A stretch of DNA of 63,245 nt, from positions 1 through 63,245 of the forward strand of contig CACGON010000005.1 in the NCBI GenBank assembly GCA_902574695.1, in the 5' to 3' direction. Below the pieces are notes generated by a model. That model saw only the letters and a list, made by a program, of their open reading frames with translations. It did not search any database and was not told the origin of the DNA. Both the position numbers and the translations under genes were made by a program. The stretch is from an uncultured Pelagibacteraceae bacterium (GTDB lineage: Bacteria; Pseudomonadota; Alphaproteobacteria; Pelagibacterales; Pelagibacteraceae). This document shows, one piece after another, positions 21,359 to 38,956 of this stretch. Position 1 is the first letter of the stretch. Every line of letters begins with the position of its first letter.

Positions 21359-21361
21359 TTT

Positions 21362-22162
21362 ATGGGTATTTATGATTGTTTTATGTATTTTGATGAAGAT
21401 CTAATTACAGATCTTAGATTAAATATATTGCAAGATCGGGTAGATAAATTTGTAATAGTTGAAGCAACAAGAGATCATGCAGGAAATGAAAAAAAACTTA
21501 ATTTTAATATTAAAAACTTTAAAAAATTTGAAAATAAAATTATTTATCATGTAGTAGACGATATACCCAAAAAGGTTATTAATTATAAAAAAGGGTGGAG
21601 TGAAAATTTCTATAGAGAAAATTTTCATAGAAATTCAATATCAAATGCTATCAAAAATTGTAATGAAAATGATTTAATTTTAATTTCTGATGCAGACGAA
21701 ATACCAAATCTTAAAATGCTCGATAGTATTAAAATAAAAAAATATGCATTGTTTAGTCAAAAAAACTTTTATTATAAATTAAATTTACAAAGCCCTGAAA
21801 ATTGGCTTGGTACTGGTGCTTGTTACAAGAAATTTTTAAATTCACCACAGTGGCTAAGAAATAAACGATTTCTTAGAAGAGGTTTTTTTAGAAGAATATT
21901 TTTTAAAACTCAAATAATAAAAAATGGTGGTTGGCATTTTTCTTTTTTAAAAACCCCAGAAGAAATAAAGAAAAAGATGCAATCTTATGGTCACGGTGAA
22001 CACCACCAATTATCTACTATTGATAATATAGCCAAAAATATTGAGGCAAAAACTTTTTTTATAAATACTGATATTAAATTAAAAAAAATTGAAATTGATG
22101 AATCTTATCCTGAGTATATTAAAAAAAATAAAAATTTTTTATTGGATTGGATATCCAATTAA
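21362..22162 (+). CDS. GT17-family glycosyltransferase, second copy
   Basis: 266 residues, clearly paralogous to the preceding gene: MGIYDCFMYFDEDLITDLRLNIL, FVIVEATRDHAGNEKK, DLILISDADEIPN and NGGWHFSFLKTPEE. Probably arose by tandem duplication and diverged, so it may add a different linkage. The stop overlaps the next start as TAATG, so three genes (20480-23199) form one transcription unit. Confidence 0.88.
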   Translation: MGIYDCFMYFDEDLITDLRLNILQDRVDKFVIVEATRDHAGNEKKLNFNIKNFKKFENKIIYHVVDDIPKKVINYKKGWSENFYRENFHRNSISNAIKNCNENDLILISDADEIPNLKMLDSIKIKKYALFSQKNFYYKLNLQSPENWLGTGACYKKFLNSPQWLRNKRFLRRGFFRRIFFKTQIIKNGGWHFSFLKTPEEIKKKMQSYGHGEHHQLSTIDNIAKNIEAKTFFINTDIKLKKIEIDESYPEYIKKNKNFLLDWISN

Positions 22163-23199
22163 TGAAAATTTTATTTATAACTCAACTTTCAGAAACTAAT
22201 AATTATAATGATAATTTAATTAACGACATTATTAGCGACATGACATTACATGGCTTAAAAGAGGTTCATGGAGACAACTTAATTGACTATCCTGGTGCAT
22301 GGTACATGTACAAAGATGAGGTCGTTAAAAAAAATTATGACATTAAAAAATTATGGGGCAATGGATTCACATATTATAATCTTTTAGATAATTACAACTC
22401 TATTGATCGATCAGATATAAAAAATAAAATAAAAAAAAATTATTTTGAATTTATAATTTATGGTGCTTTTGAAAAGTCTAAACTTTATTTTGAAGAATCC
22501 TTAAATTCTAATAGTAAAATAATAATAATTGACGGAAGAGATACAAATCAATTTAATAAAATAGTCGAGAATAATAAAATAATTTATTTTAAAAGAGAGC
22601 TAACAAAAAATAATTTTAGAAATGTGTTTCCAATAAATGTTTCTATCCCTAGTAAAAAAATAAAAGATCATGTAAATAAAAACCCAAATAACTTATTAGC
22701 CCCATTAATTCCATATAGATATAAAACTTATGTATATAAAGATGAAAACGAATATTATCAAATGTGGAGAGATAGCTTATTTGGAATTACTTATAAACCT
22801 CCTTGGGGCCATTGGTGGGAGTCTGTTAAATACTATGAAATGATGATGAATGGATGTATTCCATTATTTGTAGGCTTAAAAAACTGTCCAGAACAAACAC
22901 TTACATTATTTCCTAAAAAAAATTTATTAAATATTTTTAATAAATATTCCTGGATATTAAACCAATATTTTCCATCAAAAATTTATAGAAAAGAACTTTT
23001 AACCTATAAAAATTTTGCTTTATATTTTAAAAATGTTTTTAAAAAAAAAATGAATATAAAAAATTTTTTAGATCAAAATCCTGATATTATCTCAATAAGA
23101 AGCAATTTAATAAACTATACCAAGGAATATCTAACTACAAATTATACTGCAAAATATATTATAAATACTTCTCAGGATTTTTATAATTCTAAGAAATAA
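22162..23199 (+). CDS. Hypothetical protein of the glycan island, exostosin/GT-B-like
   Basis: 345 residues from the ATG at 22162, which overlaps the upstream stop (TAATG); an in-frame ATG five codons earlier is less likely. N-terminal MKILFITQLSE looks like a Rossmann-type beta strand. A mid-region reads GITYKPPWGHWWESVKYYEMMMNGCIPLFVG, similar in shape to the C-terminal donor site of GT-B or exostosin-type transferases, where a conserved E and a C(I/V)P mark the nucleotide-sugar pocket. No confident family. Strongly Asn/Lys/Ile-rich. Confidence 0.75.
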   Translation: MKILFITQLSETNNYNDNLINDIISDMTLHGLKEVHGDNLIDYPGAWYMYKDEVVKKNYDIKKLWGNGFTYYNLLDNYNSIDRSDIKNKIKKNYFEFIIYGAFEKSKLYFEESLNSNSKIIIIDGRDTNQFNKIVENNKIIYFKRELTKNNFRNVFPINVSIPSKKIKDHVNKNPNNLLAPLIPYRYKTYVYKDENEYYQMWRDSLFGITYKPPWGHWWESVKYYEMMMNGCIPLFVGLKNCPEQTLTLFPKKNLLNIFNKYSWILNQYFPSKIYRKELLTYKNFALYFKNVFKKKMNIKNFLDQNPDIISIRSNLINYTKEYLTTNYTAKYIINTSQDFYNSKK

Positions 23200-23305
23200 A
23201 TATAAGTTTATTTGTGGTCCACAAAGAAACCCTTTTAAAACGTAATTTCTTAATTTCTTGTTTGAATGAAAAAAAATAAGTAGTATATATCAACGTGAAC
23301 TTAAC

Positions 23306-23382
23306 GGCGGGGTAGCTCAGTTGGTTAGAGCGCGGGACTCATAAGCCCGAGGTCAGTGGTTCGATCCCACTTCCCGCTACCA
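23306..23382 (+). tRNA. tRNA-Met (CAT), elongator type
   Basis: 77 bases including encoded CCA. Acceptor stem 23306-23312 pairs with 23372-23378 (G-T at both ends). The D-arm is GCTC/GAGC and the T-arm AGTGG/CCACT encloses TTCGATC. The anticodon CAT sits at 23340-23342 in loop CTCATAA. The anticodon stem is CGGGA/GCCCG, giving an A-G mismatch next to the loop (positions 31-39). A G1-U72 pair and G-C pairs not flush with the loop argue against initiator tRNA. It lies in the middle of the glycan island, 10 bases before a glycosyltransferase start. Confidence 0.95.
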
Positions 23383-23392
23383 CTTTAAAATT

Positions 23393-24100
23393 ATGAATGG
23401 TTTATCAATAGTAATTCCAGTTTTTAATGAAAGAAAAAATCTTGATCAATTATTAAAGAGAATTGTTAAAAATTTTAAAATTAAAAATTATGAAATAATA
23501 ATAGTAGATGACGACTCTACAGATGGTTCTGACTTAATTTTAAAAAAGTTAAAAAAAAAATATAATAAACTTAATTATTTTATAAGAAAAAAAAAACCAA
23601 GAGATTTATCTAAATCATGCACATTTGGTTTTTTAAAAGCCAAATTTAATATGGTAATGGTAATGGATGGAGACCTACAACATAGACCTGAGGAAATAAA
23701 TAAACTTTATAAAAAGATTAAAAGCAAAGATTTCGATATTGTTGTGGGAAATCGTGGTTTACTTGAAAGGAAGAACTATGGGCTGAGTACAATTAGACTA
23801 ATTTCTTCCGTAATATTAATATTTGCTGTTAACTTTCTACTTGGATTGAAAACAAAAGATCCAATGAGTGGTTTTTTTATTTTTAAAAAAAAAATATACA
23901 CTAATAATAAAAATAGACTTTTTAATAAGGGATATAAAATACTTTTAGATCTAATTTATTCTTCAAAGGAAAAATTAAAAATTGTAGACGTTTATATAAA
24001 TTTTAAAAATAGAGCTGATGGTTTAAGCAAAATGAGTTTAAAGATAATTTATTTATTAATAATATTATTATTAAGAAATTTTTTAAAAAAAATATTTTAA
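23393..24100 (+). CDS. GT2 glycosyltransferase, dolichyl/polyprenyl-phosphate mannosyltransferase-like
   Basis: 235 residues. GT-A fold with IVIPVFNERKNLDQLL, IIIVDDDSTDGS, VMDGDLQHRPEEI and DIVVGNRG, the pattern of polyprenyl-phosphate hexose synthases (DPM1 type). A hydrophobic helix pair at ~140-165 and a C-terminal Leu/Ile helix may anchor it. Such enzymes make a lipid-linked sugar donor, which would suit the GT39-like integral membrane transferase encoded convergently next door. It begins 10 bases after the tRNA gene and ends 9 bases before the convergent stop. Confidence 0.92.
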   Translation: MNGLSIVIPVFNERKNLDQLLKRIVKNFKIKNYEIIIVDDDSTDGSDLILKKLKKKYNKLNYFIRKKKPRDLSKSCTFGFLKAKFNMVMVMDGDLQHRPEEINKLYKKIKSKDFDIVVGNRGLLERKNYGLSTIRLISSVILIFAVNFLLGLKTKDPMSGFFIFKKKIYTNNKNRLFNKGYKILLDLIYSSKEKLKIVDVYINFKNRADGLSKMSLKIIYLLIILLLRNFLKKIF

Positions 24101-24108
24101 ATTTTACT

Positions 24109-25554
24109 TCAGCGACTTAATAAAATGATTTCTAAACTATTAAAAAAAATATTTTTTTTAATATCATAATTTGTTAGTTTTTGAGGAATTGTATAATCTT
24201 TTTTTATGGTATCTCTAATATTAATTACCCAAAATGATTTTGGTATATCTGCGTTATCAACTTTAAAATACCGTAATTTCAAATCTTTTTTTTCAATATA
24301 TTTTTTAACATAATTTATATATGCTTCATTAGTGTTTTTTTCTTTTGCACTATAATTTCTTACAGTCAAATATTTTTCCCCTGATTTGTTTATAGCATTT
24401 AAAGCTGCTTTGAATTGAGGTTTTGTTGGGTAGGTTTCTGTGTAAAATTGCTTAAAGGTATTCTCATAAAAAATATGATTAATTAAAGATGTGAAACAAA
24501 TCAATATAACAATCATATATCTTTTGGTTTTACTGCTTAATTGAAAAGTAAAATGTGCTAGTAAAAATATAATTGGTATCAATGTAAACATTATATACCT
24601 GCTAATTAAAACAGGACTAAATAAATAACCGTAAACTATTGGAATGAAATATGAAAAAAATAATAATATTACAAAAAAAGTAAATATATTTATTTCCCTA
24701 AATAACTTTAATCTAAATTTATAGATAAGGTAAAACAAAACAAATAGGTGTATCAGTCCTAAAATTCTAGATCCAAAATATTGAGAAAAATAAAAATTTG
24801 TATAAAAACTTGGTTTTAATTGTTTTATCCAATGAGGAGAAAGACCTAAAAGTTGGTCAGCAAATTTGATATTTACAGGAAGATAAACAAACAAATAAAG
24901 AGAGGAAATTAATATTAAGCTTAAAACTAGAGAAACTTCAAATAAATTAAATTTTTGAAATTTAATAAATTTAATTATTTTGTATAATACAAATGAGCCA
25001 AGCACTAACAATGTAAAAGCATGACTAAGAACCATTAGTATTGCTACAAATACAATAAAAATAAGTTTTATTAAGTTAAGCTTCTCCTCTTGCTTTTCAT
25101 TCCTAAAATTTAAATAAATAAAAAGAGTAGTAAGAAAAAAAGTTAGTATGTAAGATCTTACCTCTATTGAATATCTAATGTGGAACAAATTTATAGATAA
25201 AATAAAAAAACCAAATATTAATGAATTAAAATTCGAAACTTTGTTGAATAGCAGAGCAAAAGTTATTAAAGAAAAAAAGCTGAGAAATAATGAAAAATAT
25301 CTTGAAACATAAACATCATATCCGAATAAAGAATGAAAAAACTTTAATAAAAAGTCATATAGACAATTAAAGTTAGAACTTAATGTTCTGACTAAAGTTT
25401 CTTTGAAAGAAATATTTGGTTCAGAAGTAAAAAAAGCAAATATCTCATCAGTCCAAAAGTCTTCAGAATTAATATTATAAGATCTAATTATTAAAGCAAA
25501 TAATAGAAAAATTAAAAAAATTGAAAATTGAAAATAATTTTTTTTTAATTTCAT
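24109..25554 (-). CDS. GT39/ArnT-like integral membrane glycosyltransferase
   Basis: 481 residues, with about ten to eleven membrane helices over the first ~370 and a soluble C-terminal tail. The first periplasmic loop has SEDFWTDEIFAFF, the acidic DE catalytic motif expected for GT-C enzymes of the PMT/ArnT type. A later VEVRSY-type block (RYSIEVRSYILTFF) is also typical. It would transfer a sugar from a polyprenyl-phosphate donor outside the inner membrane. The start overlaps the methyltransferase stop (ATGA), so it is the last gene of the rfbB-rfbA-methyltransferase run. Confidence 0.88.
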   Translation of the reverse strand: MKLKKNYFQFSIFLIFLLFALIIRSYNINSEDFWTDEIFAFFTSEPNISFKETLVRTLSSNFNCLYDFLLKFFHSLFGYDVYVSRYFSLFLSFFSLITFALLFNKVSNFNSLIFGFFILSINLFHIRYSIEVRSYILTFFLTTLFIYLNFRNEKQEEKLNLIKLIFIVFVAILMVLSHAFTLLVLGSFVLYKIIKFIKFQKFNLFEVSLVLSLILISSLYLFVYLPVNIKFADQLLGLSPHWIKQLKPSFYTNFYFSQYFGSRILGLIHLFVLFYLIYKFRLKLFREINIFTFFVILLFFSYFIPIVYGYLFSPVLISRYIMFTLIPIIFLLAHFTFQLSSKTKRYMIVILICFTSLINHIFYENTFKQFYTETYPTKPQFKAALNAINKSGEKYLTVRNYSAKEKNTNEAYINYVKKYIEKKDLKLRYFKVDNADIPKSFWVINIRDTIKKDYTIPQKLTNYDIKKNIFFNSLEIILLSR

Positions 25555-26258
25555 ATTTTTCTGATTTTTACGAAAATAAGAAATCCTGGGAAAATTAATG
25601 TTATTAATTTATCTATGAAAGAAAATCTTTTATAATTATTAAAAGAAAAAAAAGATAAAAAAGGACACAAAAATAAAAAACTTTGAATTTTTACAATTTC
25701 AAATTTTTTTTTATCAATAATATTTTTAATATTATATTTATTAAATTTAGTAATATGTTGGTGTTGATAGGACATATCAGATATTTTATTTAAAAAATAT
25801 TCTAATAAAGGCCAAAGGGATAAATAATTAGGCGTTGTAATATAAATCTCACCTTTTTTCTTTAAAGATTTATGACAGTTATTTAGTGTTAATTGAATCT
25901 CTTTACTAGTCAAATGTTCTATTAGCTCTATCATTGAGATTGTGTCAAATTTTTTATTAAACGGAAATTTTTTTTTAAACGAGTAGAATCTTTTAACTTT
26001 CGATCCATATTTTTTTTTCGCATATTTGATTTGATTTTTAGAAACATCTACTCCAAATGTTAATTTATTTTCTAATAAAGAAACAAAAGTCCCAGGTCCA
26101 CAACCAATATCTAAATGACTATTTTTTTTATTAATTAACTTTTTAACAAAATCGAATTTCGCATGATGCCAAGCACTTCTAACTCCTTTTTTCTTATGAA
26201 AAATATGATCATAATATCCCTCTACAATACTATTGTATTTAAATTTTTTTTTTTGCAT
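25551..26258 (-). CDS. Class I SAM-dependent methyltransferase
   Basis: 235 residues. SAM-binding motif HLDIGCGPGTFVSLL (residues ~45-59), then FGVDVSKNQIKYAKKKYG, TISMIELIEHL and KKGEIYITTPN: a methyltransferase 11-type fold. The N-terminal YYDHIFHKKKGVRSAWHHAKF is typical of glycan-locus members. Overlaps rfbA (TAATG) and the GT39-like gene (ATGA), so it probably methylates a sugar or lipid-linked glycan. Substrate unknown. Confidence 0.9.
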   Translation of the reverse strand: MQKKKFKYNSIVEGYYDHIFHKKKGVRSAWHHAKFDFVKKLINKKNSHLDIGCGPGTFVSLLENKLTFGVDVSKNQIKYAKKKYGSKVKRFYSFKKKFPFNKKFDTISMIELIEHLTSKEIQLTLNNCHKSLKKKGEIYITTPNYLSLWPLLEYFLNKISDMSYQHQHITKFNKYNIKNIIDKKKFEIVKIQSFLFLCPFLSFFSFNNYKRFSFIDKLITLIFPGFLIFVKIRKI

Positions 26259-27124
26259 TAAACCAATTTTTTTAAATAATTTGAATATTCACAATTTCCA
26301 TAAAATTTTATAGCTTTTTGAATATTTCCTTTATTTATCCATTTATTATTTAACGCAATCTCCTCCAAGCAAGCTATCTTAAAGCCTTGTCTATTCTCAA
26401 TGGCAGAGACAAATGCACTCGTTTTATAAAAATCCTCTATTGAGCCAGTATCAAGCCACGCACCTCCTCGACCTATTAAATCTGCGGATAAATTCTTTTT
26501 TTTTTTATAAATGTTAATTAAATCAACTATTTCTAGCTCGCCCCTTTTAGATGGTTTAAGCTTTTTTGCATATTTAATAACATTGTTATCAAAAAAATAT
26601 AATCCAGTAATTGCTAAGTCAGAAATATATTTCTTTGGTTTTTCTTTAATATGTAAAACTTTATTATTAGAATTAATTTTTGCTACTCCATATAATTCTG
26701 GTTTAATAACTTTATGCAAAATTATTCTTGCACCTTTTTTCAAAGTTGTATTCTTTTTCAATTGTTGTGTTAAATTTTGACCATAAAAAAAATTATCACC
26801 CAATATTAAAGCTACATTGTCTTCTGCAATAAATTTTTCACCCAAGATAAATGCTTCAGGCAAACCCTTTGGAGAAGCTTGCTCTTTATAGGAAATTTTT
26901 ATTCCAAGATTGTCACCATTTGGTAGTATTTTTTTATATTGACCTAATTGTCCTTTGTTAACTATTATTAATATATCTCTGATATTAGCTAACATTAAGA
27001 TTGATAATGGATAATAAATTAGCGGCTTGTCGTAGATTGGTAACAATTGTTTATTTACTGCTTTTGTTAAAGGACTCATTCTTGTTCCTTTTCCACCAGA
27101 TAAAATAATACCTTTTTTAATCAT
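26258..27124 (-). CDS. rfbA: Glucose-1-phosphate thymidylyltransferase
   Basis: 288 residues, standard length. Nucleotidyltransferase signature GGKGTRMSPLTKAVNKQLLP near the N-terminus, then DKPLIYYPL, LILGDNFFYG and WLDTGSIEDFY. It makes dTDP-glucose from dTTP and glucose-1-phosphate. Its start overlaps the end of rfbB by four bases. The phosphohexomutase at 57222-58676 could supply glucose-1-phosphate. Confidence 0.96.
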   Translation of the reverse strand: MIKKGIILSGGKGTRMSPLTKAVNKQLLPIYDKPLIYYPLSILMLANIRDILIIVNKGQLGQYKKILPNGDNLGIKISYKEQASPKGLPEAFILGEKFIAEDNVALILGDNFFYGQNLTQQLKKNTTLKKGARIILHKVIKPELYGVAKINSNNKVLHIKEKPKKYISDLAITGLYFFDNNVIKYAKKLKPSKRGELEIVDLINIYKKKKNLSADLIGRGGAWLDTGSIEDFYKTSAFVSAIENRQGFKIACLEEIALNNKWINKGNIQKAIKFYGNCEYSNYLKKLV

Positions 27125-28143
27125 CTACTTTTTCCTAGCCTTCTGACAATATCTTTTTTTTTTAATTTTGAGTAGTACCCAGGGTTTTTAAAATACCAAT
27201 CAAAAGTCTTTTCCAAACCATTAAATATACTAATTTTTGGTCTCCATTTTAATTTTTTTATAATTTTGTTACTGTTTAAAGCATATCTTAAATCATGGCC
27301 TGGCCTATCTTTAACAAACTTAATTTTCACATTATTACCAATTTTTAATTTTCTTTTTGATATATTTATTAATGTTTTTGTAATTTTAAGATTATTCAAG
27401 TTTATGTTGGATCCTATGTTATAAAAATTACCAATACTTCCCTTTTCAGAAATTTTTATTAAAGCATTACAATGATCTTCAACATGTATCCATTCTCTTG
27501 AATTTAAACCTTTTCCGTAAATGGGTAAATTTTTATTATTTAATATATTATAAATAAGTTTTGGTATTAACTTTTCTGGATGTTGTTTTGGCCCATAATT
27601 ATTTGAGCAATTCGTTATTATCGCGGGAATTTTATAAGTTCTTATATATGACGATACTAGATGATCAGAAGATGCCTTCGATGCAGCATATGGCGAACTA
27701 GGCTTATACTTATCATCTTCTTTTGATCTTCCTTTAAGAACATCACCATAAACTTCATCAGTTGAGATATGTATTAACTTACAAACCTTATTATTTTTAG
27801 AAAATTTCTTAAAGACTTCCAATAAATTAAAAACTCCTAAAATATTACTTTTAATAAAATTTTCGGGTCCATCAATAGATCTATCAACGTGAGTTTCTGC
27901 TGCTAAATTAAATATTATTTTTGGTTTATATCTATTTAAAATTTGTTTTAATTTTTTTTTATCATTTATGTCAGCTTTAATAAATTTATAGTTTGCCACT
28001 TTTTTAAACTCTCTCACATTGTAAAAATTTGCTGAATAAGTAACTTTATCAACATTAATCACTGAATATTTTTTCTTAAGTAATAAACTTATAAGATTGC
28101 TTCCGATAAAACCTAGACCACCAGTTACAATTACTTTTTTCAT
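27121..28143 (-). CDS. rfbB: dTDP-glucose 4,6-dehydratase
   Basis: 340 residues. Extended SDR fold with VTGGLGFIGSNL (NAD binding), NLAAETHVDRSIDGP, HISTDEVYGDV (the TDE triad Asp/Glu of the dehydratases), SPYAASKASSDHL (catalytic Tyr/Lys) and CSNNYGPKQHPEKLIP. Converts dTDP-glucose to dTDP-4-keto-6-deoxyglucose. First gene of the run rfbB-rfbA-methyltransferase-GT39. rfbC and rfbD, needed for dTDP-rhamnose, are not in the window. Confidence 0.97.
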   Translation of the reverse strand: MKKVIVTGGLGFIGSNLISLLLKKKYSVINVDKVTYSANFYNVREFKKVANYKFIKADINDKKKLKQILNRYKPKIIFNLAAETHVDRSIDGPENFIKSNILGVFNLLEVFKKFSKNNKVCKLIHISTDEVYGDVLKGRSKEDDKYKPSSPYAASKASSDHLVSSYIRTYKIPAIITNCSNNYGPKQHPEKLIPKLIYNILNNKNLPIYGKGLNSREWIHVEDHCNALIKISEKGSIGNFYNIGSNINLNNLKITKTLINISKRKLKIGNNVKIKFVKDRPGHDLRYALNSNKIIKKLKWRPKISIFNGLEKTFDWYFKNPGYYSKLKKKDIVRRLGKSR

Positions 28144-28193
28144 AATTTTTTTTTTTACAATAATTGCTCTTTTAAGTATACTTTTTATTATTA

Positions 28194-29045
28194 ATGAATT
28201 TTAAATTAAATGACATCACTTTTGTTATAGTTGTATATAGAAGTGAAGAAATTATACACAAGTGTTTAAGCTCACTACCAAAAGAGTGTAAAAAAATTAT
28301 TATTGAAAATTCAAATAATACTTATTTAAGTAAAGATCTTACTTCTAATTATGACAATATTGAGGTCATTTTGTCAGAAAATAATGGAATGGGTAGCGGC
28401 AATAACATTGGCCTTAAATCTTGTAAAACAAGATTAGCTTATGTGATTAATCCAGATGTTCATTTTAAAGAAGATACATTTAACATTTTACTTCAAGAGC
28501 TAAATAAATATCCAGATTTTTCATTAGCATCCCCATTAAATAGTGATAAAAAAATTCCAAATTTTAAAATATTTAACTCTGACAATGAAAACTATAGCGA
28601 TAATATTAAGTCAGTAGATAGTATTGATGGATTTTCAATGATTTTTAATTTGGAAAAATTTAAAAATCAAATTTTCTTTGATGAAAATTTCTTTTTATTC
28701 TTAGAAAATGATGACTTGTGCTTAAGAGTAAAAGAAAAAAATGAAAAGATATTTATAATAACAAATGCCACAATACATCATAGTGGAGGAATAGGTAAAA
28801 ATGATCAGTTAGAATATTTAAGAAATTGGCATTGGATGTGGTCAAAATATTATTTTAATAAAAAACATTATGGAGCCAACGTAGCAATAAAAAAAGTTTT
28901 TTTTAATTTTATATCTGCAAGTTTGAAATATATTATTTACTCAATATCATTTAATAAACATATGAAAAAAATTTATCAAATGAGACTTTGTGGACTAACA
29001 ATGTCATTTTTAGGAAAGCGATCATTCTTGAGACCAAAGGATTAA
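28194..29045 (+). CDS. GT2-family glycosyltransferase (rhamnosyltransferase-like)
   Basis: 283 residues. GT-A pattern: TFVIVVYRSEEIIHKCLSSL, KKIIIENSNN, ENNGMGSGNNIGLKSCKT, YVINPDVHF (metal-binding acidic motif) and a later FLFLENDDLCLRVKE with HHSGG. This layout is that of WbbL-type rhamnosyltransferases. Divergent from rfbB by 50 bases and 4 bases ahead of the next methyltransferase gene. With RfbAB nearby a dTDP-sugar donor is plausible (inference). Confidence 0.9.
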   Translation: MNFKLNDITFVIVVYRSEEIIHKCLSSLPKECKKIIIENSNNTYLSKDLTSNYDNIEVILSENNGMGSGNNIGLKSCKTRLAYVINPDVHFKEDTFNILLQELNKYPDFSLASPLNSDKKIPNFKIFNSDNENYSDNIKSVDSIDGFSMIFNLEKFKNQIFFDENFFLFLENDDLCLRVKEKNEKIFIITNATIHHSGGIGKNDQLEYLRNWHWMWSKYYFNKKHYGANVAIKKVFFNFISASLKYIIYSISFNKHMKKIYQMRLCGLTMSFLGKRSFLRPKD

Positions 29046-29049
29046 TTCA

Positions 29050-29862
29050 ATGTCAGAATTAAAAAAATATTTTTTAGATCTAGAAAATTATTCAACAAAA
29101 TGGGAAAAATATTTTGATGTATATGAAAATTTGTTAAGCAAATATAAAAACAAAAATATTATTTTTGTCGAAATAGGTATTTTTAATGGTGGATCTCTCA
29201 AACTTTGGAAAAAATTTTTTGGCGAAAATTCTAAAATTATAGGAATAGATATTAATGAAAAATGTAAACAATTTGAGGATAAAGAAAATAATATAGAAGT
29301 TTTTATAGGTAACCAATCAGATGAAAAATTTTGGTTAAGTTTTTTTGATAAAGTTGGAAATGTAGATATTATTTTAGATGATGGGGGACATACTAACTTA
29401 GATCAAATTGTTACTACAATAAATACCATACCCCATATAAATGACAATGGTGCATTAATAATAGAAGATACCCATACTAGTTATTTGAAAAACTACAATT
29501 CAAATTTAAGTTATTCATTCGTTAATTTTACAAAAAATTTAATAGATGACCTGAATTCAAATATAGATTTGAATTTGCACTTGAAAAAAAATAATAATTT
29601 AAAGAAGATGATATATTCAATTGAATATTTTGAGAGTATTGTTGTTTTTAAAATAAATAGAAAAAAGGCTTTTAAAAATTATCCTATTAAAAATAATGGA
29701 GCTTTTCATTCAATAGAAGATTTAAGTGAAAGAGGAAATGAAATTTTTATCGGCAATATAAAAAACTTTTTATCAAAAATTCCATTTATAAGATTAAATA
29801 AATTTACAAAGTTTATTAAAAATAAAATAAATAATAATAAAATAAAAAAATTTTTTAAATAA
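29050..29862 (+). CDS. CmcI/macrocin-type SAM methyltransferase
   Basis: 270 residues. VEIGIFNGGSLKLWKKFF, IIGIDINEKCK, VDIILDDGGHTNLDQI and GALIIEDTHTSY are the pattern of the cephalosporin-hydroxylase/macrocin O-methyltransferase group. Its Lys-rich, Asn-rich tail is strongly basic. Paralogous to 42522-43334 (ILEIGIADGKSLLMWSDYF, IIIDDGSHLAKDV, YVVEDIQTSY). Probably O-methylates a surface sugar. It closes the island against the convergent apt gene. Confidence 0.88.
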   Translation: MSELKKYFLDLENYSTKWEKYFDVYENLLSKYKNKNIIFVEIGIFNGGSLKLWKKFFGENSKIIGIDINEKCKQFEDKENNIEVFIGNQSDEKFWLSFFDKVGNVDIILDDGGHTNLDQIVTTINTIPHINDNGALIIEDTHTSYLKNYNSNLSYSFVNFTKNLIDDLNSNIDLNLHLKKNNNLKKMIYSIEYFESIVVFKINRKKAFKNYPIKNNGAFHSIEDLSERGNEIFIGNIKNFLSKIPFIRLNKFTKFIKNKINNNKIKKFFK

Positions 29863-29866
29863 AAAT

Positions 29867-30394
29867 TTAATGACCTGGAAACTCAATTAAATTTTCGACT
29901 TGATAATTTGCTTTTTTTAAATTGTCCGATCCACCTAAATCAAAAAGATTAATTACAAAAATGAAACCAGCAACATTACCTCCAGACATTTTTACTAATT
30001 TTGCAGCAGCTTCAGCTGTTCCACCAGTTGCAATCAAATCATCTATAATCAATACACTATCATTTTTATTTATAGAGTCTTTATGCACTTCTATAGTTGC
30101 TGTACCATATTCTAGCTCAAAATCAGTAGAGTATGTATCTGCTGGTAACTTATTTTTTTTTCTTAACATTATAAAAGGTTTTTTTAATATATATGAAACG
30201 GCTGAAGCAAAAACAAACCCCCTTGATTCAATTGCACCAATCTTGTCTATTTGAAATTTTTTTGACCTTTGAACAATCTGATTAATTGTTTCTGCAAATG
30301 CTTTTTCATCTTTTATAAGTGTTGTAATATCTCTGAACAAAATTCCCTTTTTAGGATAATCTGGAATTGATCTAATATAATCTTTTAAATCCAT
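29867..30394 (-). CDS. apt: Adenine phosphoribosyltransferase
   Basis: 175 residues, standard size. PRPP-binding motif VLIIDDLIATGGTAEAAAKL, N-terminal DLKDYIRSIPDYPKKGILFRDITTL, and IESRGFVFASAVSY are all typical of APT. It converts adenine plus PRPP to AMP. It is divergent, by 40 bases, from mtnP, whose product releases adenine; so it likely salvages adenine from methylthioadenosine. Confidence 0.97.
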   Translation of the reverse strand: MDLKDYIRSIPDYPKKGILFRDITTLIKDEKAFAETINQIVQRSKKFQIDKIGAIESRGFVFASAVSYILKKPFIMLRKKNKLPADTYSTDFELEYGTATIEVHKDSINKNDSVLIIDDLIATGGTAEAAAKLVKMSGGNVAGFIFVINLFDLGGSDNLKKANYQVENLIEFPGH

Positions 30395-30434
30395 AATTTT
30401 TTAAGTTATAAATAAATAAATCATTTTAAATAAT

Positions 30435-31304
30435 ATGACAAATAAATTAGCTATTATTGGGGGTAGTGGACTTTATGATGTTGAAGAATTTAAGGTCCGT
30501 GATTTTTTAGACATTAAAACTCCGTGGGGCTCGCCCTCCGATCAAATTTTAAAAACAAATTTTAATAAAAAGGAAGTTTACTTTTTACCTAGACACGGAA
30601 AAGGACATTTCATTTCACCTTCAAAAATAAATTTTAGAGCAAATATTGATGCATTAAAACAACTTGGTGTTACGGATATAGTATCTATATCTGCAGTAGG
30701 ATCATTAAAGGAAAATCTATCACCTGGAAAATTTGTAATTGTAGATCAATTTATAGATAGGACATTTGCGAGAAACAAAACTTTTTTTGATGATGAAATT
30801 GTTGCTCATGTATCGATGGCACATCCAACTTCAAACGGTTTAATGAATGCATGTGAAGAAGCTATAAAAAAAAATAAAATTGACTATCAAAGAGGCGGCA
30901 CATATGTCGTTATGGAAGGGCCACAATTTTCTACCCTTGCAGAGTCTAAACTTTATAGATCTTGGAAAGCGGATGTAATTGGAATGACCAACATGCCTGA
31001 AGCAAAATTAGCAAGAGAAGCAGAGATTAGATACGCATCAGTTTCAATGGTTACTGACTATGATTGTTGGCACCCGGATCATGAAAATGTTGATGTTCAA
31101 AAAGTTATTAAAGTTCTTTTAGGCAATGCAGAAAAAGCGAAAAATATGATTAAAAATTTAATAGAAAATTTTGAAGATCATATTGATCCTAAAGACCCAA
31201 CAAATAACTGTTTAGATGTTGCAATAATTACCGCAACGGAGAAAAGAACAAAAAAAACTATAGAAAAATTAAAAACCGTTGCTGGAAGAGCATTAATTAA
31301 ATGA
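30435..31304 (+). CDS. mtnP: S-methyl-5'-thioadenosine phosphorylase
   Basis: 289 residues. Family motifs: IIGGSGLYDVEEF, PRHGKGHFISPSKINFRANI, ISAVGSLKE, MEGPQFSTLAES and IGMTNMPEAKLAREAEI. It phosphorolyses methylthioadenosine (MTA) to adenine and 5-methylthioribose-1-phosphate. The stop overlaps the mtnA start by four bases (ATGA). First gene of a unit running to the spermidine synthase fusion. Confidence 0.97.
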   Translation: MTNKLAIIGGSGLYDVEEFKVRDFLDIKTPWGSPSDQILKTNFNKKEVYFLPRHGKGHFISPSKINFRANIDALKQLGVTDIVSISAVGSLKENLSPGKFVIVDQFIDRTFARNKTFFDDEIVAHVSMAHPTSNGLMNACEEAIKKNKIDYQRGGTYVVMEGPQFSTLAESKLYRSWKADVIGMTNMPEAKLAREAEIRYASVSMVTDYDCWHPDHENVDVQKVIKVLLGNAEKAKNMIKNLIENFEDHIDPKDPTNNCLDVAIITATEKRTKKTIEKLKTVAGRALIK

Positions 31305-32371
31305 GAATAGGAGGGAAAGAATATCGTACTATTTGGTTTGAAAATAATATTGTAAAAATTATTGACCAAACAAAACTTCCACATCAGTTTGTTATTAAAG
31401 ATCTTAAAACCGCTAGGGATGCAATAAATGCAATTAAAGATATGGAGGTAAGGGGAGCTCCATTAATAGGAGCGACCGCAGCTTATGGGTTAGTCTTAGC
31501 GATTCTTGAAAATAATAATCAATCATTTTTAAATAAATCTGCAGAAAATTTAATTAGTTCAAGACCTACTGCTATTAATTTAAAATGGGCAGTTGATAGA
31601 ATGATGAGTAAATTATCAGGTGTTAATAGTGATAAGATTTTGGAAATAGCTCTGAGTGAAGCAAAAGAAATATGTGAAGAGGACATAAAATTTTGTGAAA
31701 ATATAGGATCAAATGGTCTTAAAATAATTGAAGAAATTTATAATAAAAAAAAAGATACAGTTAATATTTTAACTCATTGTAATGCAGGATGGCTTGCAAC
31801 GATTGATTGGGGCACTGCAACCTCACCAATTTATCATGCTCACAAAAAAAGAATTCCAGTTCATGTTTGGGCTGATGAAACAAGACCTAGAAATCAAGGT
31901 GCAAATCTAACCTCTTATGAGTTAAACGAAGAGGGCATCAAGAATACAATCATTGCAGATAATACAGGTGGTATCTTAATGCAAAGAGGAAAAATTGATA
32001 TGTGTATTGTTGGTACAGATAGAACTTTAGCAAATGGAGATGTTTGTAATAAGGTTGGAACTTACTTAAAAGCACTAGCAGCTCATGATAATAATATTCC
32101 TTTTTATGTAGCTCTTCCAAGCTCAACAATTGATTGGAATATTAAAGATCACAAATATATTCCAATTGAGGAAAGAAACTCTGAGGAATTATCACACATA
32201 GAGGGCATTGATAAAGAAGGTAATATTAAAAAATTACAAATTTATCCAAAAAAAAGCAAAGCAATGAATTTAGCTTTTGATATCACACCCGCTAAATATA
32301 TTACAGGTTTGATAACTGAAAAAGGTATTTGTGAAGCATCTGAAAATGGTTTAAGAAAATTGTTCAAATGA
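31301..32371 (+). CDS. mtnA: S-methyl-5-thioribose-1-phosphate isomerase
   Basis: 356 residues. MtnA/eIF2B-like motifs: MEVRGAPLIGATAAYGL, NILTHCNAGWLAT (catalytic Cys), VWADETRPRNQGANLTSYEL and GTDRTLANGDVCNKVGTY (catalytic Asp). Isomerises methylthioribose-1-phosphate to methylthioribulose-1-phosphate. Overlaps both the preceding mtnP and the following small gene by four bases. Downstream classical methionine-salvage genes (mtnB, C, D) are not seen; a class II aldolase follows instead. Confidence 0.96.
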   Translation: MRIGGKEYRTIWFENNIVKIIDQTKLPHQFVIKDLKTARDAINAIKDMEVRGAPLIGATAAYGLVLAILENNNQSFLNKSAENLISSRPTAINLKWAVDRMMSKLSGVNSDKILEIALSEAKEICEEDIKFCENIGSNGLKIIEEIYNKKKDTVNILTHCNAGWLATIDWGTATSPIYHAHKKRIPVHVWADETRPRNQGANLTSYELNEEGIKNTIIADNTGGILMQRGKIDMCIVGTDRTLANGDVCNKVGTYLKALAAHDNNIPFYVALPSSTIDWNIKDHKYIPIEERNSEELSHIEGIDKEGNIKKLQIYPKKSKAMNLAFDITPAKYITGLITEKGICEASENGLRKLFK

Positions 32372-32574
32372 TAAAGAAAAATATATATTATATACTCTTT
32401 TTAATTATAGCATTTATAATGTTATATATTTCCAGAATAGAGTATGGTTCTTTTAGTTTAGATAAATCTATGAAATCATGCATAATTGCACAAAAAAAAT
32501 TATTTAAAGATAGAAACATAGAAGATATAAAAATTTTTTGTGAAAATGAAATTAATAAAAATCTAAATAAATAA
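32368..32574 (+). CDS. Small membrane-anchored hypothetical protein in the MTA module
   Basis: 68 residues: one N-terminal membrane helix (~6-24, possibly an uncleaved signal anchor) and a charged tail with two Cys (SCIIAQKKLF and IFCENEINK). No family recognised. Start overlaps the mtnA stop (ATGA) and stop overlaps the aldolase start (TAATG), so it is almost certainly translated and coupled to both. Its position inside a metabolic operon suggests an accessory role, unknown. Confidence 0.75.
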   Translation: MIKKNIYYILFLIIAFIMLYISRIEYGSFSLDKSMKSCIIAQKKLFKDRNIEDIKIFCENEINKNLNK

Positions 32575-33233
32575 TGGACGATGCAAGATTAGATGTAATT
32601 AAATTTGCAAAAAAATTAAACAGTTCCAATTTATCACCACTTAGATCAGGCAATATTTCGATTAGGGCAAACCAAAATAATAAAGAGGGATTTTTTATCA
32701 CACCTTCGGGTATAAAGTATGATCAATTAAAAGAGGATAATATTGTATTTTTGGAATTAGAGGAGAAAATAAATGAAGAAAAAATTAGAAGAGAAGGGAT
32801 TAATCCCTCCTCAGAATGGAGATTTCATCAGGATATTTATATTGAAAGAATAGATGCTAAAGCAATAGTACATGCCCACTCTACACACGCTACAGCTGTC
32901 TCAGCTCATAGAAAAAATATTCCAGCCTTTCATTATATGATTGCTCTTGCTGGTGGTAACGATATTAAATGCGCTCAATACGCGACTTTTGGTACAAAAG
33001 AATTATCAGAAAATATTCTTCACGCTTTAAAAAAAAGAAAAGCTTGTTTAATGTCAAACCACGGACAGGTTGCATTTGGAAAAAATTTGGACGAGGCTTT
33101 TGAATTAGCCGAAGAGATAGAAAATATTTGTCATCAATATATAAATACAATAAAATTAGGTATTCCTAAGATTCTTTCATTTGAAGAAATGAATAAAATT
33201 TTAGAAAAAACTAAAAACTATAAAAAAAGTTAA
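32574..33233 (+). CDS. Class II (fuculose-phosphate type) aldolase, candidate methylthioribulose-phosphate aldolase
   Basis: 219 residues. Class II aldolase/adducin fold with Zn ligands His100, His102 (IVHAHSTHA) and His163 (SNHG), and catalytic Glu81 (PSSEWRFH). Placed after mtnP-mtnA, it fits the aldolase (Ald2) of the DHAP shunt, which cleaves 5-methylthioribulose-1-phosphate to DHAP and methylthioacetaldehyde. MtnB dehydratase belongs to the same superfamily and is the main alternative; absence of mtnC/mtnD nearby favours the aldolase. Followed 13 bases later by the AdoMet decarboxylase/spermidine synthase fusion. Confidence 0.9.
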   Translation: MDDARLDVIKFAKKLNSSNLSPLRSGNISIRANQNNKEGFFITPSGIKYDQLKEDNIVFLELEEKINEEKIRREGINPSSEWRFHQDIYIERIDAKAIVHAHSTHATAVSAHRKNIPAFHYMIALAGGNDIKCAQYATFGTKELSENILHALKKRKACLMSNHGQVAFGKNLDEAFELAEEIENICHQYINTIKLGIPKILSFEEMNKILEKTKNYKKS

Positions 33234-33246
33234 AAGTATTTTTGTT

Positions 33247-34287
33247 ATGACTAAAGTAGGTGAGCATATTACTCTTGATATAATTGGTACAGAAAAAGAA
33301 TATGAGCCAAAATTTTTTGAAAAACTTGTATACAAAATTGCTAAAAAAGCAAAGGTAACTGTATTAGAGATTTCTAAATATAAATTTGAGCCACAAGGGT
33401 TTACTCTAGTAGCTTTACTTGCAGAAAGTCACATAAGTTTTCATACATTTCCAGAAAAAGGTATAATCAGTTTTGATTTTTTTACCTGTGGAAAGGTAAA
33501 CCCAGCTGTTGCCTTAGATGTATTAAAAAAAGACATTAAACATAAACGTATCGTTAAAAAAGAATTTAATAGAGATACTGTTAGTTATTATGATGACATT
33601 TATAGCTCACCAGGATTAAAGAAATATTATATGGTAAAAAATGTATTAGAAAATTTTACATCTAAAGTTGGTCAACACATTGAAATATTAGATTTAGAGC
33701 AATTTGGTAAATCTTTATTTATAGATAATGAATTGCAAGTATCGGAAAAAGATGAACATTTATACAGTTCTACTTTTGTAAATTCTGGTATTAAGCTTAA
33801 CCCTAATAAAGATAAATCAGCAATTATTGGAGGCGGAGACGGAGGTGTTGCCAGAGAATTAATTTCTAAAGGTTTTAATTTAATTGATTGGTATGAGCTT
33901 GACCCAGAGGTTGTTAAAGTTTGTGAAAAACACCTATCTAAAATTGGAGATAAGGCTACAACAAAAAATTCTGTAAAGTGTGTTTGGGGCGATGCGTTTG
34001 AGAGTATTAAAAAAGTAGAAGATAACAAATATGATAAAATTTTTGTTGATTTAAATGATGATCAGTATTGCATCGATCTTGCCGCGAAAAATATTAAATC
34101 TTTAAAAAGGATTTTAAAATCTGATGGCACAATTACTGCTCAAGTTGGAAGCCAAGATAAAAAGCCTAAACAAGTCGACAAATGGTTAAATTTATTTGAA
34201 AAAAGCTTCGGCAATACATCTTTAGATAGAATTTATATTCCAAGTTTTGACTGTTCTTGGAACTTTGCATCCTCAGTAAATAAATAA
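33247..34287 (+). CDS. Fused S-adenosylmethionine decarboxylase - spermidine synthase
   Basis: 346 residues in two domains. Residues 1-~115 are a prokaryotic AdoMet decarboxylase: the self-cleavage site is AESHISFHTFPE with Ser61 as pyruvoyl precursor, His66, and Cys81 in FFTCG. Residues ~120-346 are an aminopropyltransferase: YYDDIYSSPGLKKYYMV, LEQFGKSLFIDNELQVSEKDEHLYS, AIIGGGDGGVARELI, YELDPEVV and KIFVDLNDD. One polypeptide would make decarboxylated AdoMet and transfer its aminopropyl group to putrescine, releasing MTA, the substrate of MtnP upstream. The fusion is complete with both active sites intact. Confidence 0.95.
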   Translation: MTKVGEHITLDIIGTEKEYEPKFFEKLVYKIAKKAKVTVLEISKYKFEPQGFTLVALLAESHISFHTFPEKGIISFDFFTCGKVNPAVALDVLKKDIKHKRIVKKEFNRDTVSYYDDIYSSPGLKKYYMVKNVLENFTSKVGQHIEILDLEQFGKSLFIDNELQVSEKDEHLYSSTFVNSGIKLNPNKDKSAIIGGGDGGVARELISKGFNLIDWYELDPEVVKVCEKHLSKIGDKATTKNSVKCVWGDAFESIKKVEDNKYDKIFVDLNDDQYCIDLAAKNIKSLKRILKSDGTITAQVGSQDKKPKQVDKWLNLFEKSFGNTSLDRIYIPSFDCSWNFASSVNK

Positions 34288-35909: not shown

Positions 35910-36586
35910 TGGATTTTGAATTAATGATTAATAGTTTTCCCAAATTACTAAATGCCGCTGTTATTACTTTAAAACTTTTGTCCGTGTCTTTAATTGTAGG
36001 ATTGTTCATTGGTCTTTTATTTGCAATTCTAAGATTAAATAAAAATATTTTTATTAATAAATTTGCATATGGGTATTCATATGTTTTTAGAGGAACACCA
36101 TTATTAGTGCAAATATTCATTATATATTTTGGTCTAGGTCAAATAGAGTATTTAAGGTCAACATTTTTGTGGGTGATTTTAAAAGAACCTTATTGGTGTG
36201 CAATTATTGCTTTTGCTTTAAACACTGGTGCTTACACTTCTGAAATTTTAAGATCTGCATTTCAAACAATTCAACCTGGAATAATTGAAGCTGGCAAAAG
36301 CTTAGGAATTTCTAACAAAATAATATTTTATAAAATTCAAATTCCAATTGCTATTAGACAATCTTTACCAGCTTATGGTAATGAAATTATTTTAATGATG
36401 AAAGGAACTTCTTTAGCAAGCACTGTTACAATAATGGATCTAACTGGTGTTGCAAAATATATAATTTCAACAACTTTTAAGCCGATCGAAGTATTTATTG
36501 TTGCAGGTGGAATTTACTTATTTATGACTTTTATAATTCATAATGTAATCAAGTATCTAGAAAAAAAATATAGTTTCTCTCAATGA
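35909..36586 (+). CDS. Polar amino acid ABC permease (HisM/OccM type)
   Basis: 225 residues. YSYVFRGTPLLVQIFIIYFGLGQ, NTGAYTSEILRSAFQTIQPGIIEAGKSLGIS and PAYGNEIILMMKGTSLAST are HisM/OccM family motifs. Partner of the preceding permease. No ATPase gene follows; instead a PhyH dioxygenase overlaps the stop by four bases, so the ATPase must be supplied from elsewhere in the genome. Confidence 0.94.
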   Translation: MDFELMINSFPKLLNAAVITLKLLSVSLIVGLFIGLLFAILRLNKNIFINKFAYGYSYVFRGTPLLVQIFIIYFGLGQIEYLRSTFLWVILKEPYWCAIIAFALNTGAYTSEILRSAFQTIQPGIIEAGKSLGISNKIIFYKIQIPIAIRQSLPAYGNEIILMMKGTSLASTVTIMDLTGVAKYIISTTFKPIEVFIVAGGIYLFMTFIIHNVIKYLEKKYSFSQ

Positions 36587-37410
36587 CAGGGTTAACAGCA
36601 AAACAATTAGATCATTACAAAAACAAAGGATATATTTCACCTGTAAATGCCTTGAGCTTATCTGAAGCAAAAGAAATTAGAAATGAAATAGAAAAAATTG
36701 AAAAAGATTGGCCAGGAGCACTAGAGGGAGTTAATCGAAACTACGTCCATTTAATTTCACCAATATTTAATAAAATTTGTTTAAATAAAAATATCCTAGA
36801 TGCAGTCGAAAGTATAGTTGGTGATAATATTCTAATTTGTGGTACTACACTATTTATAAAAAATCCTAATGAAAAGGGTTTTGTAAGCTTTCATCAAGAC
36901 GCTAAATATATTGGTCTGGAGCCACATAATTGGGTAACTGTTTGGTTAGCTGTTACTGATGCAAATGAACAAAATGGATGCATGAGAATGTTACCAGGTT
37001 CACATAAGGAAAATTTAAAAAAGCATGATCAAAAGTTCGATAAAAATAATTTATTAACTCGTGGTCAGACAATAACAAATGTTCCATTAGACAAAACAGA
37101 ACCTATAATTCTTAAAGCAGGCCAAGTATCATTGCATCATCCATTAATTGTTCATGGATCAGGGTTAAACCAAAGTAACGATAGAAGAATAGGATTTGTT
37201 ATTCAAAGTTATATAGGAAGTAATGTTAATCAAGTAATTGGAAAAATGTATGTTCAGCTAGCTAGGGGAATAGATAAATATAAATATCATGAGTATTCTA
37301 AAGTACCTGTAGAATTAATGGGAAAAAGTGAAGTATCTTCTCAAAATAAAGCTAACGAAGAATTATCTAAGATTTTTTATAGTGGCTCAAAAAAAATAGG
37401 AAAGTTTTAA
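36583..37410 (+). CDS. PhyH-family Fe(II)/2-oxoglutarate dioxygenase
   Basis: 275 residues. Phytanoyl-CoA dioxygenase fold with the iron triad: the HxD in VSFHQDAKYIG (~104-106), and the distal His in SLHHPLIVHGSG, with RRIGFVIQ supplying the 2-oxoglutarate-binding Arg. GCMRMLPGSHK is also typical. The family hydroxylates or demethylates small molecules. Because it overlaps the permease gene, its substrate is probably what the transporter brings in. The ectoine-hydroxylase signature was not recognised. Convergent with the M24-like hydrolase gene, ends overlapping by four bases. Confidence 0.92.
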   Translation: MTGLTAKQLDHYKNKGYISPVNALSLSEAKEIRNEIEKIEKDWPGALEGVNRNYVHLISPIFNKICLNKNILDAVESIVGDNILICGTTLFIKNPNEKGFVSFHQDAKYIGLEPHNWVTVWLAVTDANEQNGCMRMLPGSHKENLKKHDQKFDKNNLLTRGQTITNVPLDKTEPIILKAGQVSLHHPLIVHGSGLNQSNDRRIGFVIQSYIGSNVNQVIGKMYVQLARGIDKYKYHEYSKVPVELMGKSEVSSQNKANEELSKIFYSGSKKIGKF

Positions 37411-38558
37411 AGGACGACAAGATCTAACTTTTGTTTCCCAAGTCTTTCATTTCCATTTTCAGTTACCAGATAAGTTTCACCTAAATTCATTGCTAATTGG
37501 TTTTTAGAGTCCATTAATATCATGTGCATAAAAAAAACATTTCCAGGCTGAATTTCATAAGGATTATTGGTGTAAAGCATTGGCCAGTCCATCCAGTTCG
37601 GTGAAAAAGTATTTCCTAATGAATAACCACAAGCATTCATTCTAGCTTTATTAAAACCAAGGTCATCAAAGGTCTTTGCATGAGCATCAAAAACTTCTCC
37701 AATTTTATTTCCTGGTTTAAGTTTACTTTCACAATTCTTTAATGCCTCAATACAAGCCTCGTGCATTTTATAATGTTTAGGATCTGCTTTACCAATAGGA
37801 ATTGTTCTAAACATAGCTGAATGATAATGTTTGTAAGTTCCTGCCCACTCTACTGTTAATTGATCTTGATTGCTTAAAATTTGTTTTTCAGATTGATAAC
37901 GACATAGAAGAGCATTTTTCCCAGAACCAATAATAAATTCATTAGCAGGATAATCTCCTCCATCCTCAAAAATAACTCTATTCATTTCAGCTAATATCTT
38001 AGACTCACTTACTCCAGCTTTTGCATGCTTCCATACTTCATCCAAAGCTTTATCAGCAAGCTCAGCAGCTTTTTTTACATAAACAATTTCTTCTTTGGAT
38101 TTGATAACTCTTAACTTTGTTATTAAGTCTGATTTATCTTCGAAACTACAATAATTTTCTAAAGATTTATTAAGTCTAAGTGCATTACGTCCAGTTAAAC
38201 CGTATGCCTCGTATTCAACCCCTAATTTTTTTCCTTTAAGATTTAACTCTTCTAAAATAACTTTAAGATCATCGGTCGGATTAGAGCCATCTTTATCAAT
38301 CCAAATTCTGATATCCTCAAGGTTAGAGGTATTCTGTGCTTGTCGTAAATCTGGAGCTCTAGTTAAGAGTATTGTGTTCCCATTTTTATCTATAATTAAT
38401 GATTGAAAAAAAACGTAACCAAAAGTGTCATAACCTGTCAACCAATACATAGACTCTTGTCTAAACATCAATAAAGCATCAAGATTCTGCTCTTTCATTG
38501 ATTTTAAAACTTTATTTTTTCTTTGTGAAAATTCTTGCTTTGAAAAATGAAGTCCCAT
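37407..38558 (-). CDS. M24-fold hydrolase without metal site (creatinase/ectoine hydrolase-like)
   Basis: 383 residues from the ATG at 38558 (a TTG four codons earlier overlaps the upstream gene). Pita-bread fold with creatinase N-domain (LTGYDTFGYVFFQSL) and C-domain. The two Asp of the metal site are replaced in VEWAG (Glu237) and YHSAMFRT (Ala248), and the usual GHG and EPG ligands are absent (CGYSLG, MHMILMD). This is as in creatinase and the DoeA/EutD ectoine hydrolases, which cleave C-N bonds without metal. So an amidine or ring hydrolase acting on an osmolyte is more likely than a peptidase. Convergent neighbours: a PhyH dioxygenase and an ABC uptake system. Confidence 0.87.
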   Translation of the reverse strand: MGLHFSKQEFSQRKNKVLKSMKEQNLDALLMFRQESMYWLTGYDTFGYVFFQSLIIDKNGNTILLTRAPDLRQAQNTSNLEDIRIWIDKDGSNPTDDLKVILEELNLKGKKLGVEYEAYGLTGRNALRLNKSLENYCSFEDKSDLITKLRVIKSKEEIVYVKKAAELADKALDEVWKHAKAGVSESKILAEMNRVIFEDGGDYPANEFIIGSGKNALLCRYQSEKQILSNQDQLTVEWAGTYKHYHSAMFRTIPIGKADPKHYKMHEACIEALKNCESKLKPGNKIGEVFDAHAKTFDDLGFNKARMNACGYSLGNTFSPNWMDWPMLYTNNPYEIQPGNVFFMHMILMDSKNQLAMNLGETYLVTENGNERLGKQKLDLVVL

Positions 38559-38566
38559 TAAAATGA

Positions 38567-38956
38567 TCAATAGCCAGTATATTCTTTGATTTCTTTGATT
38601 TTAGATCCAGTATAGTTATTGATTTCTAATTTAATATTTCCTCTCTTATCATTTAAAAAATGTATATCTCTTGATGTTTTTATGAAAACTTCACCAAAAT
38701 CAGAATTTTTTTCACAAAGCCTCTTTTCATTTTCAATATCCCATAACTTATTATTTATATCTTTGAGTTCTTTAAAAAGATCACTTAATTTTTCATCAAT
38801 TTTTACGTTGTTTTCAAACTGATTCTTTAAAATGACATATTCTTCATTTATAAAATTGAGTTTATCAGGATCTTTGATCCTGTCTTTTTTAATTTCTAAT
38901 ATGGATAATTTGTCTAAAAGCTCACCAACAGATACTTCAACTAAAATCTTATTCAT
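38567..38956 (-). CDS. DUF6165-type hypothetical protein
   Basis: 129 residues, fully helical and charged, with ILVEVSVGELLDKLSILEIKKDRI at the N-terminus and a C-terminal RDIHFLNDKRGNIKLEIN, the pattern I associate with DUF6165. These proteins are often found beside ADP-heptose-type GT9 transferases, as here (the GT9 gene is divergent, 32 bases away). Function unknown. Confidence 0.78.
   Translation of the reverse strand: MNKILVEVSVGELLDKLSILEIKKDRIKDPDKLNFINEEYVILKNQFENNVKIDEKLSDLFKELKDINNKLWDIENEKRLCEKNSDFGEVFIKTSRDIHFLNDKRGNIKLEINNYTGSKIKEIKEYTGY

Follow-up and report, generated by a model that had tools for sequence, protein, structure and literature searches.

A probable DHAP shunt wired to polyamine synthesis in SAR11, with an aldolase slot exchanged between close strains

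How would a SAR11 bacterium dispose of the methylthioadenosine (MTA) that is released when it makes polyamines? The question is raised by a block of genes at positions 29867-34287 of the window, by which we mean the whole stretch of 63,245 nucleotides analysed here (contig CACGON010000005.1 of the uncultured Pelagibacteraceae assembly GCA_902574695.1, a genome that is 88% complete, with 1.04 Mb spread over 32 contigs). The block consists of apt on the reverse strand, followed on the forward strand by mtnP, mtnA, a small open reading frame (ORF), an aldolase gene and speDE. On the whole, our analysis indicates that it is very probably a dihydroxyacetone phosphate (DHAP) shunt wired to polyamine synthesis, with the aldolase slot being a swappable cassette in SAR11. 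The locus exists in three alternative states, of which the window aldolase represents one, a point missed by the original prediction made from the letters of the window. Another state, an aldolase-dehydrogenase fusion, offers a candidate fate for the aldehyde product.

The five genes that had been predicted here are all intact ORFs, and the family models agree with their assignments. The MTA producer would be the speD-speE fusion (33247-34287, forward strand), which joins an AdoMet decarboxylase and an aminopropyltransferase and is borne out by the Pfam domains AdoMet_dc (96.3 bits) and Spermine_synth (75.8 bits), both above the Pfam cut-offs. Its decarboxylase half exceeds one NCBIfam cut-off (97.5 over 75.65), and its aminopropyltransferase half stays under those for SpeE (121.4 against 260; 95.7 against 249.55). 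Such a fusion in SAR11 was reportedly described by Green in 2011. SpeDE fusions of Pelagibacter, with the same domain order as in the window and no difference that we could see, have been assayed and are active AdoMet decarboxylases and spermidine/spermine/thermospermine synthases (PMC11107197). In the proposed pathway, SpeDE would make spermidine/spermine and release MTA, which MtnP (MTA phosphorylase, 30435-31304, forward; NCBIfam NF006492, 441.6 bits, cut-off 437) would phosphorolyse to adenine and methylthioribose-1-phosphate. The adenine would be returned to AMP by Apt (adenine phosphoribosyltransferase, 29867-30394, reverse; NCBIfam NF002634, 220.3 bits, cut-off 170), and MtnA (methylthioribose-1-phosphate isomerase, 31301-32371, forward; TIGR00512, 424.3, cut-off 279) would isomerise the sugar phosphate to methylthioribulose-1-phosphate. 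Finally, the predicted zinc aldolase (32574-33233, forward; Pfam Aldolase_II, 175.4 bits), for which 5-deoxyribulose-1-phosphate is also a predicted substrate, would cleave methylthioribulose-1-phosphate to DHAP and 2-(methylthio)acetaldehyde. The substrates and the direction of flux in this scheme are what we infer from the genes. In R. palustris, MtnP, MtnA and Ald2 convert MTA to DHAP and methylthioacetaldehyde, the latter seen as methylthioethanol (PMC5893883). The module had been called closed, which does not hold at the window locus, where neither the methylthio-aldehyde nor its sulfur is recycled; it had rightly been said that the fate of this left-over aldehyde is not encoded in the block.

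Is the aldolase rather the methylthioribulose-1-phosphate dehydratase (MtnB) of full methionine salvage? Both belong to one Pfam family, and the sole match to the MtnB model in the window genome is this very protein (62.6 bits), but it scores 66.6 against the MtnB model TIGR03328, whose cut-off is 137.05. Its top curated models are FucA-like, yet also under cut-off (202.7 against 264), and the only other aldolase-like match in the genome is a PRK07044-like protein (185.7 bits, under 207). By sequence and fold, FucA of E. coli and of S. pneumoniae come closest among solved structures, followed by DrdA (6btd); the AlphaFold model is moderate (mean pLDDT 69.9, with residues 112-140 and 193-219 below 50) and was used for its fold class alone. 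We then compared the aldolase with FucA, Ald2 and MtnB in a 46-protein tree (16 from SAR11, 25 from other members of the class Alphaproteobacteria, E. coli FucA, E. coli S88 Ald2 and three MtnBs taken as above-cut-off matches), built without eight fusion N-termini, L002, R. rubrum Ald2, DrdA and RhaEW. The MtnB clade stands apart from the aldolases with support 100/100. In the alignment, FucA residues Glu73, His92, His94, His155 and Tyr113 are kept in all 43 aldolases and Tyr209 in 42, with one gap, and the three MtnBs show Leu, Phe and Leu in the Tyr113 column and a gap in the Tyr209 column. The window aldolase has all of these residues, which we take to be the zinc ligands, the catalytic Glu and two catalytic Tyr of FucA; titles of PDB entries name FucA mutants at E73, Y113 and Y209. 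We searched 99 genomes of the family, 40 of them at least 90% complete, for acireductone dioxygenase (ARD, MtnD): it is above the cut-off in none, with two partial matches below it (21.8 and 21 bits), in a search whose cut-off was reached in just 2 of 14 control genomes and which did not cover mtnC or mtnK. We therefore reject the MtnB reading, to which we give hardly any weight, on score, tree, residues and the missing ARD. The window aldolase is a predicted FucA/Ald2-type zinc aldolase. Since it is not an MtnB by these measures and MtnD is above cut-off in 0 of 99 genomes, the DHAP shunt that had been proposed holds as a prediction. Clustering of the aldolase with MtnB, together with mtnC and mtnD elsewhere in the genome, had been named as the result that would speak against it, and neither the tree nor the MtnD search gave such a picture, mtnC lying outside the search.

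The distribution of the genes across the same 99 genomes ties the aldolase slot to mtnA. SpeDE is found in 80 genomes, MtnA in 72, MtnP in 71, the aldolase in 47 and the fusion in 28. Cross-tabulation of the 72 genomes with mtnA gives 44 with the aldolase, 27 with the fusion, none with both and one with neither (G092, whose mtnA reaches the contig end). Among the 27 genomes without mtnA, 23 have neither, and four have one aldolase or fusion gene, each beginning at most 155 bp from a contig start. Fisher's test for this tie, which ignores shared ancestry, gives 2e-17. A fucose use of the aldolase is disfavoured by the tie to mtnA, fucI and fucK not having been searched in the family. Similarly, among 80 named loci, the best 80 of 520 relatives in a speDE alignment scan (all Pelagibacteraceae or Pelagibacterales, identity up to 97%, by which the window is placed in SAR11), the aldolase is present in 62, the fusion in 18 and both in none. 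The identical gene order is kept in many relatives, and the arrangement is therefore not chance; having producer and recycler of MTA in one block had been called unusually neat, which is fair for the window, whereas the arrangement is common in the family. In one genus (g5, 13 genomes, several incomplete), speDE, mtnP, mtnA and both kinds of aldolase gave no match, and a nucleosidase-like gene is found in 2 of its 13 genomes.

What occupies the slot in loci that have mtnA and speDE without the aldolase? It is a protein of some 677 residues encoded on the reverse strand, composed of a class II aldolase domain and a short-chain dehydrogenase (SDR) domain, and non-orthologous to the window aldolase. 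Its distance from speDE is 84-129 bp in all 28 family fusion genes. The fusion scores 886.7 bits against the model named bifunctional aldolase/short-chain dehydrogenase (cut-off 639), and it stays below the cut-off of 567.75 of the RhaD-ADH (rhamnulose) model with 448.3 (443.3 for L036 and 459.8 for L170). The zinc-ligand His, the Glu, the SDR Tyr/Lys and the NAD-type Asp are kept in 74 of 74 fusions, which comprise 44 from SAR11 (45 loci supplied, one dropped for length) and 30 from the class; the Tyr/Lys pair is characteristic of SDR enzymes, and the Asp is typical of a preference for NAD. By our reading, the fusion would combine a methylthioribulose-1-phosphate aldolase with an NAD-dependent aldehyde dehydrogenase: the aldolase domain would perform the same cleavage as the window aldolase, and the aldehyde would be oxidised to methylthioacetate by the SDR domain, which binds NAD, and so be given a fate. 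In L034-L042, variable extra genes lie between mtnA and the fusion, namely an enoyl-CoA hydratase with a CoA-binding protein, an SMR transporter, MsrA, an Ldh_2 dehydrogenase and a flavodoxin. The extra genes of other loci, between mtnP and mtnA, are a weak GDSL match, a tautomerase, a PhyH protein and one gene without a family.

The fusion is an alphaproteobacterial alternative and not limited to SAR11. In the class, the aldolase is found in 115 of 385 genomes; the best 30 loci, which were the ones read, include 27 new ones (L054-L080, two from the family), with mtnA at most 1.5 kb away in 25, only mtnP in one and neither in one. The fusion is found in 66 of 337 class genomes (E <= 1e-60), and of its 30 best loci in the class 13 have mtnA no more than 1.5 kb away, 4 only mtnP and 13 neither; wider flanks, where the contig allowed, gave no further mtnA or mtnP. 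Among 55 class genomes with a fusion match below 1e-150, four also carry the aldolase; of the remaining 325 genomes from outside the family, 106 carry it. The comparison is approximate because the fusion search covered fewer of these genomes than the aldolase search. It is at this point that another reading must be weighed, in which the fusion is a rhamnose/fucose-type enzyme that came to lie beside mtnA in SAR11 by happenstance. It could draw on the 13 class loci with neither gene, on the 10 of 18 named SAR11 fusion loci in which mtnA is not in view, and on PMC3870299, which describes RhaEW orthologues as always within rha loci. However, the fusion occurs with mtnA in 27 of 28 family genomes (the remaining one lies at a contig start) and never together with the single aldolase in the 99 genomes, mtnA or mtnP adjoins it in 17 of those 30 best loci, and neither fucI nor mtnK was found near it in the 17 loci read. 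Its scores also fall on the side of the other subfamily. We consider the rhamnose/fucose reading quite unlikely, and keep to a fusion that would act on methylthioribulose-1-phosphate.

The third state is shown by four genomes (G026, G078, G012 and G040; 99-100% complete, speDE present) that lack mtnP, mtnA and both aldolases. A simple loss of MTA disposal in these genomes was rejected, as an ORF of 174-178 residues lies between apt and speDE in all four, and it matches Pfam PNP_UDP_1 (two scanned and over cut-off; the match is seen in all four genomes). One such ORF has 40 PDB matches, named MTA/SAH, adenosylhomocysteine or aminodeoxyfutalosine nucleosidases, with one plant protein without a function name. 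In this state adenine would be recovered and methylthioribose discarded. Relatives of the ORF are found in 7 of the 99 genomes, the others being G010 and, without speDE, G005 and G028. Beyond these four genomes and the two considered below (G032 and G048), the remaining speDE genomes without mtnA are four contig-cut cases. In all three states, apt and speDE flank the locus.

Close strains differ by a clean swap of the cassette in place. In the closest of 63 pairs, L145 and L143, the upstream flanks are 95.1% identical over 5,880 bp and the downstream flanks 96.5% over 4,120 bp, and between them lies an insert of 673 bp with the aldolase in L145 and of 2,119 bp with the fusion in L143. L136 and L160 show the same pattern with flanks of 96.8% and 92.8%. 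A SpeDE tree of 136 proteins made by a quick method (87 of aldolase loci, 43 of fusion loci, 4 of nucleosidase loci and 2 with none in view) has 15 state changes, at least 9 of them forced by well-supported branches, to which recombination of speDE itself could contribute. At its apt end the locus adjoins a surface-polysaccharide island of low GC content (22.8%, against 30.1%), which would plausibly explain the frequent exchange.

Does the locus then serve MTA? The aldolase might serve 5'-deoxyadenosine from radical SAM enzymes, as DrdA does, with its adjacency to speDE inherited and non-functional. The DrdK-DrdI-DrdA trio of B. thuringiensis, likewise an isomerase and a FucA-like aldolase leading to DHAP and an aldehyde, does act so and also acts on methylthioribose (PMC6079011), and DrdA (6btd) is a structural neighbour of the window aldolase. 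The window differs from it in having a phosphorylase and not a kinase, phosphorylase variants also being noted in that paper, and in its link to polyamine synthesis. But the MTA producer speDE adjoins in all three states, the nucleosidase-only state included, and the uses of MTA and 5'-deoxyadenosine are mutually compatible. A role restricted to 5'-deoxyadenosine is thus unlikely in our view, and a shunt fed by SpeDE is preferred.

Several observations weigh against this shunt and its alternative states. Class II aldolases are promiscuous. E. coli S88 Ald2 falls on the aldolase side of the tree, paired with FucA and apart from the SAR11 protein, so that Ald2 would be the name of a role and not of a single clade. 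The S88 gene order is mtnK-mtnA-aldolase, and the S88 gene annotated as mtnB and called Ald2-like in PMC6302742 is taken to be this aldolase gene. Two genomes with speDE, G032 and G048 (L229), have mtnP without mtnA, so that methylthioribose-1-phosphate would be a dead end there unless another enzyme uses it. Of the 80 named loci, 21 show no mtnA, 11 of them with the aldolase and 10 with the fusion; in some, a contig edge cuts off the view. Among the named loci, L139, L145, L151 and L155, from one subclade, have a cluster of about 6 kb upstream of the aldolase or fusion, where mtnA is expected, with ORFs that by eye look like a transporter, a monooxygenase and DUF849, and no mtnA is seen within 8 kb. 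The nucleosidase-like ORF is below the NCBIfam nucleosidase models (87.3 against 129; 57.8 against 73.8; two scanned), and G010, a genome with 8% contamination, has both the fusion and this ORF. Outside the family, both kinds of aldolase are found together in four class genomes, and the 13 of 30 best class fusion loci with neither mtnA nor mtnP near suggest that the fusion may have further, broader roles across the class.

With regard to the finer structure of the window locus, the overlapping starts of the original prediction stand in part. mtnP and mtnA share 4 bp (ATGA), mtnA shares 4 bp with the small ORF (32368-32574, forward; 68 residues, N-terminus hydrophobic by eye), which had not been listed and overlaps both neighbours, and this ORF shares 1 bp with the aldolase start (TAATG). 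There is no overlap between the aldolase and speDE, spaced by 13 bp, nor between apt and mtnP, whose divergent starts are 40 bp apart. Of 139 sequences searched, the window among them, 35 have relatives of the 68-residue ORF (27 in the aldolase state, 6 in the fusion state and 2 unassigned). The low-GC island (23-25%) spans 18000-29862, ending at apt, around a tRNA-Met at 23306-23382, and contains glycosyltransferases, nucleotidyltransferase/dehydratase sugar genes and methyltransferases; in an Rfam scan, the sole family reaching threshold is the tRNA at 23306. Downstream, a PhyH-family oxygenase (36583-37410) has sub-threshold similarity to chlorinating enzymes, and beside it an M24 peptidase (37407-38570) has sub-threshold similarity to the ectoine hydrolase DoeA.

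How much of this is new? The window holds the gene set of the DHAP shunt, MtnP, MtnA and a FucA-class aldolase together, with the same three enzyme steps, gene neighbours and aldolase class as in R. rubrum and R. palustris (MtnP-MtnA-Ald2) and E. coli (mtnK-mtnA-ald2); the locus differs in adding the MTA producer speDE and apt, and its relatives in substituting the fusion or the nucleosidase-like gene. RhaEW of C. aurantiacus and B. subtilis has in common with the SAR11 fusion an aldolase and an SDR in one chain, the Glu, the zinc-ligand His, the SDR Tyr/Lys and the NAD-type Asp, and in vitro is an aldolase and NAD-dependent lactaldehyde dehydrogenase with no reductase activity seen (PMC3870299); the SAR11 fusion differs, by score and in a comparison made without direct alignment, in belonging to another NCBIfam subfamily and in its apt-mtnP-mtnA-speDE locus. 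In the open-licence literature, as far as available to us, we found no account of a DHAP shunt in SAR11, though the supplement of PMC8437039 may mention mtnA and mtnP, nor of an aldolase-dehydrogenase fusion at mtnA. Neither the DHAP shunt nor the SpeDE fusion is new, and the block in the window is by itself an ordinary DHAP-shunt locus; the swap system is, as far as we found, a new form of it.

It has been proposed that spermidine is the substrate of a SAR11 SpeE working backwards (PMC8437039). The idea merits a second look, since the reverse reaction would need MTA, which a locus of this kind should remove. In contrast to the description of MtnP-MtnA-Ald2 organisms as mostly terrestrial (PMC5893883), the MtnP-MtnA-aldolase trio is common in this family, whose members are abundant in the sea. 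What becomes of methylthioacetaldehyde is a gap in the known pathway, where a putative alcohol dehydrogenase is assumed; the fusion would be a concrete candidate for removing it by oxidation. On balance we lean slightly towards a redox-coupled DHAP shunt, in which one polypeptide would cleave methylthioribulose-1-phosphate and oxidise the toxic methylthio-aldehyde, and which SAR11 populations would swap in place with a plain aldolase, or forgo for a lone nucleosidase, so that neighbouring strains may release different organosulfur end products from one polyamine pathway.

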